A stretch of 64,000 nucleotides of DNA from positions 124,001-188,000 of the forward strand of contig NZ_JASTWE010000001.1 of NCBI RefSeq assembly GCF_030282845.1, read 5' to 3'. The DNA is from Pseudodesulfovibrio pelocollis (lineage in GTDB: Bacteria > Desulfobacterota > Desulfovibrionia > Desulfovibrionales > Desulfovibrionaceae). Numbering within the stretch: position 1 is the first letter of the stretch; each line of letters begins with the position of its first letter. Below, piece by piece: positions 3,499 to 60,333 of the stretch. Under the pieces are notes generated by a model. It was not told the origin of the DNA, did not search any database, and saw nothing but the letters and a program-made list of their open reading frames with translations. A program made the position numbers and the translations under genes.

Positions 3499-4608
3499 AT
3501 GAATGTGTATCTGGCAGGCGGCGCGGTCCGCGACCTTCTTCTGGGCAGACCCGTCGCCGACAGGGATTACCTTGTCACGGGCGCGACCAGACAGGAGTTC
3601 GCACAGCGCTTCCCCCAGGCCAGGGAGGTGGGCCGGAGCTTTCCGGTCTTCCTGCTGGACCGGTTGGAGTTCTCCTTTCCGCGCAAGGCCCCCCTGGACG
3701 AAGAACTACGGTCGCGCGACCTGACTGTCAATGCCATGCTCATCGACCAGGATGGCGACCTGATCTGCCACCCGGACAGTCTGGACGATCTGGCCTCGCG
3801 CACCCTGCGCCCGGCCTCGCGCCAGTCGTTTCTGGACGACCCCCTGCGCGTGTTCCGGGCCGCCCGGTTCTGGGCCAAGATGCCCGACTTCAACCCCCAC
3901 GACGAATTGGTGGAGATCATGCAACTGGTGGCTGCCAGGGGGTTGATCGCCACCCTACCCCCCGACCGCATCGGGCAGGAGACCCGCAAGGCGCTGCTTT
4001 CCGAATCCCCTGGCAACTATTTGAGATTGCTTGCCAAAGCTGACTGCCTTGACCCGTGGCTCACAGAGTTCAAGCAAAGCATTAACATTCCGGCTGGACC
4101 TGCGCCCTATCACGACACCGACGTGCTGGAGCACACTTGCCGGGTCATGGACAGTCTGGCCGGAGACGGCGTGGCCGTGTGGATGGGGCTATGCCACGAC
4201 ATCGGCAAGACCGTCACCCCGAAGGAAAAACTGCCCAGCCACCACGGCCACGACAGGATCGGCGCGGACATGGCCGACACCCTGGCCCGGCGCATCCGGC
4301 TTTCCAACACCCTGGCCCTGGCCGGGCGCAAGGGCGCGCAGTGGCACATGACCGCCGCGCGGTATCGCGAGCTGCGCCCGGGCACCAAGGTGGACATGCT
4401 CATGGACCTGCACCGCTGCGGCCTGCTGCGGCGGCTGTTCCGGCTGGTCACCGCCGACCAGGACGTGGACGACTGGCATCTGGCCGCGCGCGACATCCGG
4501 CGCGTCCTGGCGGTCCGGCTGCCCAGCGAGCAGCGCGGCCTCGGCCCTGACTCCGGCACCCGGCTGCGCCAATTGCGCGCCCAGGCCCTGGCCCCGCGCA
4601 GAAAATAA
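3499..4608 (+). CDS. cca: tRNA CCA-adding nucleotidyltransferase with HD domain
   Basis: Adds or repairs the 3' CCA of tRNAs. The 369-residue protein starts MNVYLAGGAVRD, the class II nucleotidyltransferase signature, followed by the catalytic acidic pair in VADRDYLVTG and the RRDLT-like motif SRDLTVNAM. FLDDPLRVFRAARF marks the nucleotide-selecting neck. The second half carries an HD phosphohydrolase domain (HTCRV at about residue 214, CHDIGK at about 232), as in the E. coli-type enzyme. The start at 3499 is set by homology; the ribosome site is weak. An upstream open frame in phase lies antisense to birA and is not coding. The alternative of a poly(A) polymerase is less likely because the N-terminus and HD domain follow Cca. 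Confidence 0.9.
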   Translation: MNVYLAGGAVRDLLLGRPVADRDYLVTGATRQEFAQRFPQAREVGRSFPVFLLDRLEFSFPRKAPLDEELRSRDLTVNAMLIDQDGDLICHPDSLDDLASRTLRPASRQSFLDDPLRVFRAARFWAKMPDFNPHDELVEIMQLVAARGLIATLPPDRIGQETRKALLSESPGNYLRLLAKADCLDPWLTEFKQSINIPAGPAPYHDTDVLEHTCRVMDSLAGDGVAVWMGLCHDIGKTVTPKEKLPSHHGHDRIGADMADTLARRIRLSNTLALAGRKGAQWHMTAARYRELRPGTKVDMLMDLHRCGLLRRLFRLVTADQDVDDWHLAARDIRRVLAVRLPSEQRGLGPDSGTRLRQLRAQALAPRRK

Positions 4609-14110: not shown

Positions 14111-14187
14111 CGGGATGTAGCGCAGTCTGGGAGCGCACTTGAATGGGGTTCAAGGGGTCGGAGGTTCAAATCCTCTCATCCCGACCA
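14111..14187 (+). tRNA. tRNA-Pro (anticodon GGG)
   Basis: Folds as a full cloverleaf: acceptor CGGGATG with CATCCCG, D stem GCGC/GCGC, anticodon stem CTTGA/TCAAG with loop ATGGGGT, and T arm GGAGG-TTCAAAT-CCTCT. The anticodon is GGG (Pro, CCC and CCU codons). The CCA end is encoded at 14185-14187. Confidence 0.95.
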
Positions 14188-14248
14188 AACGACGAAACAC
14201 CCCGGTGGACCGGCAATCCGGTCCGCCGTTTCGTTGAAAGCTCAAGAA

Positions 14249-14324
<76 letters not shown>

Positions 14325-14331
14325 TATATCG

Positions 14332-15348: not shown

Positions 15349-15627
15349 TCAGGCCACGAATTCGGCCATCCGGGTAAAGACCGCGTGCCCGCCGTCGTGG
15401 CGCTCGACCATGAGCACATCCTCCAGCTTGTCCACCTGCTTGATCATCTGATTGAGCCGTTCGTCGGCATCCACCAGCAGCCAGATGCGGCTGGTGCTCC
15501 CGCCGTTGACGGGCATGCAGGCGATGCCCTCCACATTGTAGGCGCGCCGGGCGAACAGGCCGCAGATGTGCGACATGACACCGGGATGGTTGTTCACCGT
15601 CAGTTCGATAACCGTCTGTTTACACAT
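15349..15627 (-). CDS. ilvN: Acetolactate synthase small (regulatory) subunit
   Basis: A 92-residue ACT-domain protein, the regulatory subunit that gives valine feedback control to acetolactate synthase. The ACT fold shows VIELTVNNHPGVMSHICGLFARRAYNVEGI, the usual IlvN/IlvH opening. It is of the short type, like E. coli IlvN (96 residues), and lacks the C-terminal domain of IlvH. The gene overlaps the end of ilvB by eight bases and has its own GGAGG box inside ilvB, so the two are translationally linked and made in step. Confidence 0.93.
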   Translation of the reverse strand: MCKQTVIELTVNNHPGVMSHICGLFARRAYNVEGIACMPVNGGSTSRIWLLVDADERLNQMIKQVDKLEDVLMVERHDGGHAVFTRMAEFVA

Positions 15628-17293
15628 GAACTTTTCCTCCGATCATCTGGGAGTTGGCGGCTCCGGGAGGAACCATGGGGTACACGGGGTCATCAGCGCT
15701 GACCGGCACATGGATCAGGCAGGGGCCGGACTGGGCCAGGGCCTCGGCCAGCGCGGCCCCGGGATCGGCGCTGCACCCAAGGTCGATGGCTGGCAGTCCG
15801 AAGCCCTCGGCGATCTTGAGAAAATCCACCCGCCGGGCATAGTCGGACGCGAAGTAGCGCTTGCCGTAAAACAGGTCCTGCTGCTGGCGCACCAGCCCCA
15901 GGGCGTTGTTGTTGAGCAGGATGATCTTGACGTTGACATGGTGCTCTGCGGCCGTGGCCAAGTCCTGGATATTCATCATGATCGACCCGTCGCCGCTGAA
16001 GCAGAGTACGGTGCGCTCCGGCGCGGCCAGGGCCGCGCCGATGGCGGCCGGCATGCCGAAACCCATGGTTCCCAGCCCGCCCGAGGTCAGCCACTGGCGC
16101 GGCCGCAGGAAGGGATAGACCTGGGCCGTGCGCATCTGGTGCTGGCCCACGTCGGTGCAGACGATGGCCTCCTCCCCGGCCAGTTCCGCAGCCTTGAGAA
16201 TCACCCCATAGGACGAGCACGGATCGTCGGCCCCGGGAATGATCACGGGATGCTCGCACCTGAGCCCGGCCACCTCGCCCAGCCAGGGCGAACGGTCTGC
16301 GGGCCTGACCAGCTCAAGCAGCGCTGCCAGCGAATCGACCAGATCACCCGCCACAGGCACGTGGGCGCTCTTGATCTTGTCCAGCTCGCTGGCGTCGATG
16401 TCCAGATGGATGATCTTTGCGTCCGGGCAGAATTCAGCCACCTTGCCCGTGGCCCTGTCGTCGAAGCGCACCCCGGCCGCGATGAGCAGGTCGCACCGCT
16501 CCATGGCCAGGTTGGTGTGCCGCGCGCCGTGCATGCCGAGCATGCCAAGACACAGGGGATGGTCCACAGGCAGCGCGCCCAGGCCCATCAGGCTCAGGGC
16601 AGCCGGAATCGACGCCTTCTCGGCCATGGCCCGTGCCAGGGCCGACGAGCCGGACTGGACAACGCCCCCGCCCAGATAGAGGATGGGCCGCTGGGCCTCG
16701 TCGATGATCCGGGCGGCGTGGGCCAGTTCCGGGGCCATCAGCTCGGGGCCGAAACCGCAGCCGCCCGGCTCGGGCCAGGCGTCGAATTCGAGCATGGCGG
16801 TCTGGACATCCTTGGGCACGTCGATGACCACCGGCCCGGGGCGGCCCGAGGACGCGATGCGGAAGGCATCCGGGATGACGCACAGCAGCTCGTCCACGCT
16901 GCGCACCAGATAGTTGTGCTTGGTGATGGGCACGCTCAGGCCGTAGGTGTCCACCTCCTGGAAGGCATCGGTACCGATCATGGCCAGGGGAACCTGCCCG
17001 GTGATGCAGATGATCGGGATGGAGTCGAGCTTGGCATCAGCGATGGCGGTCAGGGTATTGGTCGCGCCCGGCCCGGAGGTGGCGAAAAACACGGCGGGCC
17101 TGCCCGTAACCCGGGCCATGCCTTGGGCGATGAACCCAGCGCCCTGCTCGTGGCGGGTCAGGATGTGCCGAATGGGGCTGGCCGAGAGCGCGTCGTACAT
17201 GGGCAGATTCGCTCCCCCCGGAATTCCGGCAATGATCTCTATGTCCTGCCGCTCAAGCAGTTTGATGATGATTTCCGCACCACTGAATTTCAT
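15620..17293 (-). CDS. ilvB: Acetolactate synthase large (catalytic) subunit
   Basis: Catalytic subunit of acetohydroxyacid synthase, the first step of valine, leucine and isoleucine synthesis, using ThDP, Mg and FAD. The 557-residue protein has the catalytic Glu49 in TRHEQGAGFIAQG, FATSGPGATN, and the ThDP motif GDGSIMMN...LLNN in the C-terminal third. AGGAGG lies just before the ATG at 17293. Upstream on the same strand are a valine-rich leader peptide and a strong hairpin with a T-run, so expression is probably set by attenuation on charged tRNA-Val. Confidence 0.96.
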   Translation of the reverse strand: MKFSGAEIIIKLLERQDIEIIAGIPGGANLPMYDALSASPIRHILTRHEQGAGFIAQGMARVTGRPAVFFATSGPGATNTLTAIADAKLDSIPIICITGQVPLAMIGTDAFQEVDTYGLSVPITKHNYLVRSVDELLCVIPDAFRIASSGRPGPVVIDVPKDVQTAMLEFDAWPEPGGCGFGPELMAPELAHAARIIDEAQRPILYLGGGVVQSGSSALARAMAEKASIPAALSLMGLGALPVDHPLCLGMLGMHGARHTNLAMERCDLLIAAGVRFDDRATGKVAEFCPDAKIIHLDIDASELDKIKSAHVPVAGDLVDSLAALLELVRPADRSPWLGEVAGLRCEHPVIIPGADDPCSSYGVILKAAELAGEEAIVCTDVGQHQMRTAQVYPFLRPRQWLTSGGLGTMGFGMPAAIGAALAAPERTVLCFSGDGSIMMNIQDLATAAEHHVNVKIILLNNNALGLVRQQQDLFYGKRYFASDYARRVDFLKIAEGFGLPAIDLGCSADPGAALAEALAQSGPCLIHVPVSADDPVYPMVPPGAANSQMIGGKVHV

Positions 17294-17332
17294 GATGGAG
17301 CCTCCTGGTTGCCCCGGGCGGTCGGCGGGAAC

Positions 17333-17366
17333 GGAAAACCCCCGCCGGTTCGCACCGGCGGGGGTT
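17333..17366 (-). terminator. ilvB attenuator terminator
   Basis: On the minus strand, a perfect 13-bp stem (AACCCCCGCCGGT and its complement, four-base loop at 17350-17353) is followed by TTTT. It lies between the leader peptide stop (17399) and the ilvB start (17293), the position of a transcription attenuator. Confidence 0.85.
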
Positions 17367-17398
17367 GATGTGTACAGTCCTTGAAGAATGCAATCCCG

Positions 17399-17503
17399 CT
17401 ATGGCGCGTCCCTATGGGCACGACCTACTACGACGTCAACGACGACTACGGCGACCGCTAGGCGGGCGTCGAAAAGAAGGGAGTCGTGGTCGAAGTTGCG
17501 CAT
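17399..17503 (-). CDS. ilvB leader peptide, valine-rich (34 codons)
   Basis: A short frame from ATG 17503 to TAG 17399, with an AGGA box upstream. It encodes 34 residues with eight valines, seven of them in the block AVVVVDVVVG, with all but two of the valine codons being GTC or GTA/GTT mixtures of varied third base. This closely mirrors the E. coli ilvB leader IvbL, whose valine run is followed by a short Gly/Ala/Pro end; here the end is GRAHRDAP. The stop is 33 bp before the attenuator hairpin. Ribosome stalling at the valine codons when valyl-tRNA is scarce would be expected to prevent the terminator from forming. There is no leucine run, though LL occurs early. Confidence 0.85.
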   Translation of the reverse strand: MRNFDHDSLLFDARLAVAVVVVDVVVGRAHRDAP

Positions 17504-17536
17504 AAGCGGCTTGTTCCTTTCATTGAATATTGATTA

Positions 17537-17565
17537 CGCATAATCAAGGCGCAAGGCGGCGTCAA
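17537..17565 (-). promoter_or_regulatory. Candidate promoter of the ilvBN leader transcript
   Basis: Minus-strand TTGACG (17565-17560), 17-base spacer, TATGCG (17542-17537), about 35 bases before the leader ATG. The -10 region overlaps an imperfect palindrome, GATTA-N4-TAATC at 17532-17545, which could be an operator. Confidence 0.4.
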
Positions 17566-17651
17566 CATCTTTTTCCACCCATGCGACCCCTTGCCACCAT
17601 CCAGGAAAAGAACCATGCTGCTGGCGCACACGCCGTGCTCAGGAGTCATCC

Positions 17652-18251
17652 ATGCGCATCCTCATCGTCCTGGCCCACCCCGACCCGTCCAGCTTCAACC
17701 ACGCCATCGCCCGCCGGGCACAGGCCACGGCCTTGACCAACGGCCATGACGTGACCCTGCGCGACCTGTACGCCGAGGGATTCGACCCCATCCTGCCTGG
17801 CCCGGAAATCCCCCGGAGCGCCCCCCTCCCGGCCAAAATTGCCCGCCACTGCGAGGAGGCGGCCAGCGCCGACGGCATCATCGTGGTCCACCCCAACTGG
17901 TGGGGCATGCCCCCGGCCGTGCTGACCGGCTGGGTCGATAGGGTGCTGCGGCCGGGAACAGCCTATGAATTCGTGGGCGAGGATGGCGGCGAGGGAGTGC
18001 CCGTGGGGCTGCTCAGGGCGCGCACCGCCCTGGTCTTCAACACGTCCAACACCGAGGCGAACCGGGAGAACACCATTTTCGGCGATCCGCTGGAACGCAT
18101 CTGGAAGGACTGCGTCTTCGGCCTGTGCGGCGTGGCCGAGACCCGGCGGCGGATGTTCCGCATCGTGATCACCAGTTGTGCGGAAGAACGGCACCAATGG
18201 CTCGGCGAGGTCGAGGCTATGGTCAACGCGAATTTCCCCGCGCACCAGTGA
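17652..18251 (+). CDS. Flavodoxin-fold NAD(P)H:quinone oxidoreductase
   Basis: A 199-residue protein of the NQO1/KefF/MdaB family, which reduces quinones or related electrophiles with FMN or FAD. It starts MRILIVLAHPDPSSFNHAIARR, the flavin phosphate loop, followed by VTLRDLYAEGFDP. VHPNWWGMPPAVLTGWVDRVL is the family signature for flavin and substrate contact, and TSNTE lies in the second flavin loop. The ATG has an AGGAGT box. It is a lone gene between the ilvB leader (divergent) and a small membrane protein, and its substrate is unknown. Confidence 0.88.
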   Translation: MRILIVLAHPDPSSFNHAIARRAQATALTNGHDVTLRDLYAEGFDPILPGPEIPRSAPLPAKIARHCEEAASADGIIVVHPNWWGMPPAVLTGWVDRVLRPGTAYEFVGEDGGEGVPVGLLRARTALVFNTSNTEANRENTIFGDPLERIWKDCVFGLCGVAETRRRMFRIVITSCAEERHQWLGEVEAMVNANFPAHQ

Positions 18252-60252: not shown

Positions 60253-60270
60253 TTCCGCCCGCCCAGGCAG

Positions 60271-60313
60271 AAAAAAACTCCCCGTCCCTCAGTTGAGGAA
60301 CGGGGAGTTTTTT
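60271..60313. terminator. Bidirectional terminator before the ugd stop
   Basis: Long hairpin with arms AAAAAACTCCCCGT and ACGGGGAGTTTTTT and inner CTCA/TGAG pairs, T-runs on both strands. It separates the small gene (plus) and ugd (minus). Confidence 0.92.
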
Positions 60314-60333
60314 ATCGTCCTGCTGATGCCGGA

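Follow-up and report, generated by a model that had tools for sequence, protein, structure and literature searches.

The ilvBN locus and its leader region

The window analysed here, 64,000 nucleotides of the Pseudodesulfovibrio pelocollis genome (contig NZ_JASTWE010000001.1, positions 124,001 to 188,000), encodes the two subunits of acetohydroxyacid synthase I (AHAS I) on its minus strand: the large subunit gene ilvB (15620..17293, 557 codons), which scores 934 bits against NCBIfam model NF006016 (cut-off 870) and contains the Pfam TPP enzyme domains, and the small subunit gene ilvN (15349..15627, 92 amino acids), which overlaps the end of ilvB and scores 152 bits against NF006036 (cut-off 128). 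These models are designated acetolactate synthase large subunit and small subunit, respectively, and presumably represent IlvB and IlvN of E. coli AHAS I. The closest named relative of the window ilvB is from an uncultured Pseudodesulfovibrio (83%), in line with membership of Desulfovibrionaceae, formerly counted among the Deltaproteobacteria. A second AHAS gene in the same genome, 46% identical to the window ilvB, has ilvH- and ilvC-like frames on its 3' side and other frames close on its 5' side (all named by eye), and its locus has no match to covariance model R1 (L002, L182) or R2 (L002). The attenuated pair described below therefore coexists with another AHAS, and E. coli likewise has an attenuated ilvBN beside another AHAS. 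Genes for tRNA-Pro(GGG) and tRNA-Thr(GGT) are located close together on the plus strand (14111-14325), downstream of ilvN.

The minus strand upstream of ilvB carries, in order, the sequence AAAGGA, a leader frame, a 32-base spacer, a hairpin, 43 bases and the ATG of ilvB at 17293, so that 105 nt extend from the leader stop to the ilvB start. AAAGGA (17515..17520), located 5' of the leader ATG, reads as a Shine-Dalgarno-like sequence, and an AAAGG-like stretch with small variations occupies the same site in 12 aligned congeners. The leader frame (17399..17503; ATG at 17503, TAG at 17401-17399), which the original prediction had given as 34 codons with eight valines, was confirmed by translation of the open reading frame (MRNFDHDSLLFDARLAVAVVVVDVVVGRAHRDAP). 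Codon variation and computed folds define its regulatory valine run as codons 17-26 (17426..17455), V-A-VVVV-D-VVV. The valine cluster is not a chance occurrence, because the leader is the one frame among 824 window ORFs of 10-70 codons (413 + 411) to have at least six valines in any nine codons. The RNA from 17515 to 17325 folds with z = -2.87, and none of 200 shuffled sequences was equally stable. A simple pattern scan of 17250-17750 recognised no sigma-70 promoter. Also 5' of the leader, a perfect palindrome (TTGATTA-TGCG-TAATCAA, 17530-17547) that is not kept in the 12-genome alignment is possibly an operator or a chance occurrence. The neighbouring long frame (17652-18251) is on the plus strand, opposite to the leader.

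Translation and conservation of the leader

Within the core codons VVVDVVV (20-26), which were chosen after the variation table had been inspected, 12 congeners show 1 minor letter at first codon positions, none at second positions and 18 at third positions; widening the range to codons 17-28 gives 12, 14 and 28. Because the third base varies while the valines stay fixed, the leader frame is evidently translated. This codon signature would also suit translational coupling, in which the leader frame raises or gates ilvB translation through reinitiation and the hairpin merely stabilises or separates, and reinitiation at leaders has been proposed (PMC4833913). However, the 105 nt that separate the leader stop from the ilvB start argue against coupling, as do the conserved complementarity of RNA strands 2 and 3 and the position of the switch relative to the valine run (both described below), for which reinitiation has no need, making this explanation highly unlikely.

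The original prediction had staked its case on a valine run and a hairpin being conserved at this place in relatives, and both are. An upstream ORF with at least four valines in nine codons is present at 102 of 107 loci with IlvB at least 51% identical to that of the window, versus five of 33 loci below 51%, counting loci whose upstream sequence extends for 250 nt or more (which left out L028 and L051 at or above 51%, L052 and L080 below it) and including in the 107 four identical-sequence pairs (L015/L094, L030/L101, L026/L106 and L029/L111), for a total of 103 distinct upstream sequences. With a threshold of six valines in nine codons, the counts are 90 of 107 and one of 33. Two of the five positives below 51%, L049 and L146, are AHAS I-clade members with real leaders; three of the other 31 loci below 51% reach four valines in nine codons, and none reaches five. 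The five misses among the 107 are four loci with leaders of fewer valines (L114, L115, L116 and L120) and Clostridium chromiireducens L047.

At L047, a T-box (3643-3896; RF00230, 121.5 bits) precedes an AHAS I-type ilvB that has no valine leader: the same gene with a different sensor. T-boxes sense uncharged tRNA directly. The occurrence of a T-box before this type of gene favours the idea that the window also has a ligand-binding riboswitch or a T-box instead of a translated leader, but gathering scores were not reached by any Rfam family, either at the window (searched in E-value mode, with three weak matches, each on or near the terminator) or in five relatives, and good conservation in the 12-genome alignment falls on the valine run of the frame, on strand 2 and on the terminator. 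A riboswitch or T-box in the window is almost certainly not the explanation.

Predicted terminator and antiterminator

The perfect 13-bp stem expected before ilvB was found at 17366-17337 as an intrinsic terminator on the minus strand, AACCCCCGCCGGU-GCGA-ACCGGCGGGGGUU, with 13 perfect pairs and a GCGA loop. The TTTT reported to follow the stem is present; half of it is inside the stem, as it consists of the two T that close the right stem arm plus 17336-17335, and consequently the free U tract is short, the sequence directly 3' of the stem being TTCCGTT. Five or six T follow the stem in some congeners. The hairpin is absent from the terminators listed by the pattern scan of 17250-17750, which requires at least five T after a stem. 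Over 74 aligned leaders, 93.2% of the cells of the terminator stem are standard, and its double-change cells number 61 versus 15.9 in shuffles; in an alignment of the window's own family alone, 95.2% of cells are standard. By set thresholds, 101 loci have the terminator and seven do not (L025, L027, L032, L117, L118, L121 and L039), all seven of which were matched by covariance model R1 (L117 at just E 8e-4).

The short U tract, together with the lack of a recognised promoter 5' of the leader, would be compatible with a constitutive terminator that serves another transcript and stands beside a chance or unrelated frame, the ilvBN promoter being 3' of the terminator. However, no upstream transcript obviously needs ending here, because the neighbouring frame is on the other strand, and records of several phyla retain the unit before AHAS I-type genes, whereas a search of 32 other-type AHAS loci did not find it. 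A constitutive terminator is thus considered extremely unlikely.

The alternative antiterminator that the original prediction called for exists, with a different 5' strand, which is drawn from codons 3' of the valine run and from bases at and beyond the stop codon; an antiterminator formed by the valine codons themselves was rejected, the pairing partner being located 3' of the run. In the window, strand 2 (17395..17407, minus strand; GCGCC-AUA-GCGGG) covers the Ala and Pro codons, the stop codon and the bases directly 3' of it, and strand 3 (17352..17366, minus strand; AACCCCCGCCGGUGC) makes up the 5' arm of the terminator together with its loop, 17362-17352 forming the 3' strand of the antiterminator. 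The core consensus of the 74-leader alignment, GCGCCG-UA-GCGGG ... AACCCCCGCCGGCGC-GA-GCCGGCGGGGGUU, has the same arrangement: its first block runs from the last sense codons through the stop codon into the bases beyond, and is complementary to the terminator's 5' arm and loop. One pair of the alignment (columns 42-96) is unformed in the window, where AUA bulges. The alignment retained 74 of 91 candidates, and its statistics are favoured by the dropping of 17 in which strand 2 was outside the common register; in it, 91.0% of antiterminator pair cells are standard versus 38.7-57.1% when the strands are slid. Double-change cells number 24 versus 10.2 in shuffles, none of 500 of which scored as high, and seven pairs have changed on both sides, a number equalled or exceeded by 42 of 500 shuffles; the shuffle controls are lenient for related rows, and the slid controls preserve relatedness. 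An alignment restricted to the window's own family (37 of its 43 rows in the larger alignment) gave 92.9% standard cells versus 38.5-60.2% when slid, and nine double-change cells versus 4.6 in shuffles (two of 500 as high). Sixteen of the 17 dropped candidates were later run against R1, and all 16 were matched (E <= 2.1e-4).

Of 94 loci, 63 have a duplex between the strand 2 region and strand 3 that is better than its dinucleotide shuffles at p <= 0.05, the window among them (p = 0.045), and 31 miss this level; the mean z is -2.47. Leaders of genus g7 end differently (KPEGRL or similar; L125, L126, L129, L130, L131 and L134), with the antiterminator strand sited in other codons of the coding region, and yet complementarity is retained (p = 0.005 for L125, L126, L131 and L134, 0.01 for L129 and 0.025 for L130). 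A suspicion that ilvB is broken by internal stops in this genus was rejected upon reading of six g7 loci, which have an ordinary stop at the gene end.

The pause hairpin envisaged for the leader RNA fared less well. A 1:2 hairpin forms in the window fold and can be drawn in congeners too, but compared with codon-order shuffles it finds no general support (mean z -0.22, negative in 46 of 93).

Ribosome position and the predicted switch

Folds were computed with a model in which the ribosome occupies 15 nt, counted from the start of its A-site codon, and the RNA extends just through the terminator loop. In the window, every computed ribosome position between codons 17 and 28, a span that includes the entire valine run, leaves 10 nt of strand 3 paired with upstream sequence; at codons 29, 30 and 31 this drops to 8, 5 and 3 nt, and between codon 32 and the stop it amounts to 0-3 nt. 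With the ribosome placed on the last valine of the run, 72 of 92 leaders pair 7 nt or more of strand 3 upstream (the other 20 fail this test), versus nine of 92 with the ribosome on the stop codon. The attenuation control proposed outside the gammaproteobacteria gains support from this predicted switch. The terminator of the window (-29.0 kcal/mol) is far more stable than the antiterminator (-16.1 kcal/mol), and so the switch would have to be kinetic.

Computation reveals a translation signature, two alternative stems with covariation, a positional fit and homology to the E. coli attenuator. Very probably, the ilvB leader is an ivbL-type, ribosome-mediated attenuator of transcription, through which the availability of charged valine tRNA would control ilvBN. 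With ample valine, the ribosome would reach the stop codon and cover strand 2, allowing the terminator (strands 3:4) to form and transcription to stop before ilvB. When Val-tRNA is scarce, the ribosome would stall within the valine run and leave strand 2 free to pair with newly made strand 3, and RNA polymerase would continue into ilvBN. Both termination and read-through would be expected in cells, presumably with valine as the signal.

Distribution of the probable attenuator

Covariance model R2, derived from 37 leaders of the window's family alone, was evaluated on two sets of 32 loci, one of AHAS I type that had played no part in building it and one of the other AHAS type. In the first set, 30 loci gave a coding-strand match (E <= 5e-4); in the second, none reached E 0.1. 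The two AHAS I-type loci left unmatched are L047, with its T-box, and L028, whose upstream sequence is 46 nt long. The resemblance to the leader-peptide layout of E. coli ivbL-ilvB, noted originally from inspection, was substantiated by an R2 match at ivbL of strain K-12 (E 1.4e-10). Further matches are in Rhodocyclaceae, Desulfopila and records labelled Hydrogenedentota, Verrucomicrobiota, Elusimicrobiota, Latescibacterota (E 4.8e-4), Fibrobacterota (E 2.7e-6) and Spirochaetota (E 1.6e-5 and 4.9e-5), adding by record label six phyla to those of the window and E. coli, with the proviso that single taxon labels may be wrong because many records are metagenome bins. Sampling was centred on relatives of the window, and hence says little about where this attenuator family is commonest.

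R1 matches 66 of 345 genomes of the window's phylum at E <= 1e-3, but in 47 of these every match is weaker than 1e-6, and the weak matches often span the terminator part alone. At E <= 5e-8 there are 17 places, 16 of which precede an AHAS I-type ilvB; seven of the 17 supplied sequences to R1, and so this is not an independent test. At one place (L198, G193:C182, 1501-1622), an R1 match of E 4.8e-15 with a leader ending MNRDVHSPNTMLPIRLALLGVGVGVRVLDAAVP has no ilvB within 1.5 kb of 3' flank, and is classed as an orphan or rearranged element. Two successive R1 matches precede an AHAS I-type ilvB at L206 (G246; contig positions 33386-33501 and 33222-33331), the first of which carries the leader MEHYSTNLQSVVLQLLVVVVNRMPSAG, possibly a tandem attenuator. 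Elsewhere in the window, on the minus strand at 60269-60318, a weak R2 match (E 0.017; model positions 65-112, mainly the terminator part) is probably an ordinary terminator.

Valine codon choice

The valine codons of 59 distinct leaders of the window's family are GTA (39.1%), GTC (38.9%), GTG (11.9%) and GTT (10.2%), whereas those of the ilvB genes at the same loci include 3.5% GTA, 22.1% GTC and 61.3% GTG; the share of GTA is greater in the leader than in its own ilvB at 51 of the 59 loci. Another 38 leaders, compared with their genes, have 34.3% versus 8.0% GTA and 25.4% versus 49.4% GTG, and GTA is higher in 29 of the 38. The tRNA-Val anticodons identified in the window genome are UAC, GAC and CAC, with 37 of 45 tRNA matches typed and the remaining eight (84-93 nt) of the size of Leu, Ser or Tyr tRNAs. 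By the usual wobble rules, GUA and GUC are each read by one isoacceptor, and GUG and GUU by two. Dependence of GUA and GUC on a single isoacceptor would make stalling sharper, and selective charging is argued to be a cause of leader codon bias in PMC1183508. Alternative causes of the bias would be avoidance of GUG as a stray start codon and RNA pairing.

Possible descent of the ivbL-ilvBN unit

Two IlvB trees were constructed with AHAS of the other type as the outgroup, by FastTree (131 rows, two of which, not named as outgroup, landed on the outgroup side) and by IQ-TREE in quick mode (69 rows). In both, the enteric IlvB proteins (Kluyvera, Serratia, Edaphovirga and Orbus) group with those of Rhodocyclaceae/Zoogloeaceae with support of 99, and this group is nested in a clade with genes of Desulfobacterota, Hydrogenedentota and Verrucomicrobiota. 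The enclosing forks have support of 81-94 (IQ-TREE) and 83-96 (FastTree), and many forks are unresolved, giving moderate support to the nesting of the enteric copies among those of these three phyla, from which a direction of transfer may be suggested. Other bins labelled Pseudomonadota are placed elsewhere (L044, L046 and L048), and two more (L015 and L040) among Desulfovibrionaceae, probably due to old labels.

The chances seem about even that E. coli ivbL-ilvBN is a late twig of one cassette (leader, antiterminator, terminator, ilvB and ilvN) that came from outside the Gammaproteobacteria and moved as a unit among at least eight phyla, by record label, with its three-strand RNA core closely kept and its valine codons chosen as GUA and GUC (one isoacceptor each, given tRNA-Val with UAC, GAC and CAC anticodons) while GUG was shunned. 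The presence of ivbL-type attenuator homologues in several phyla opens their origin, transfer and codon choice to comparative study, and the cross-phylum family and the codon choice are the parts worth following; an attenuator in a sulfate reducer that began as a guess has become testable.

Comparison with known attenuators

The attenuator of the window is of the E. coli ivbL kind, which is already known; what was not expected is the breadth of its distribution and the nesting of the enteric copies. The open literature searched for leader attenuation in Desulfovibrio, deltaproteobacteria and Verrucomicrobia yielded no relevant paper; earlier predictions may stand in the comparative surveys of Vitreschak (2004) and Lopatovskaya (2010).

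Actinobacterial ilvB leaders, including that of Corynebacterium (the ilvB-II motif), are likened to the window by description: each has a short frame with branched-chain codons, according to PMC10272879 and PMC1262725, the latter of which calls the exact mode unclear and mentions codon changes in S. coelicolor that were without effect. These leaders differ from the window in preceding other operons (ilvBNC and similar). The T-box of C. chromiireducens is likewise a cis-acting leader switch before the same gene family as in the window, but without a valine leader.

The closest parallel is ivbL-ilvBN of E. coli K-12 (b3672-b3671-b3670), in which, as in the window, a valine-rich leader that ends in Ala-Pro is followed by a terminator and the AHAS I pair ilvB-ilvN, and 105 nt separate the leader stop from ilvB. 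The original prediction had compared the Gly/Ala/Pro ends of the two peptides; Ala-Pro is indeed common to both, and is best explained by the RNA pairing of strands 2 and 3. The E. coli leader has nine valines in two blocks split by Arg, whereas that of the window has eight, the last two blocks of which are separated by Asp, and a longer stretch of residues precedes its Asp-Ala-Pro than in E. coli. The 2:3 duplex of E. coli consists of 6 + 3 pairs (GCGCCG with CGGCGC, GGG with CCC), its second helix being shorter than that of the window.
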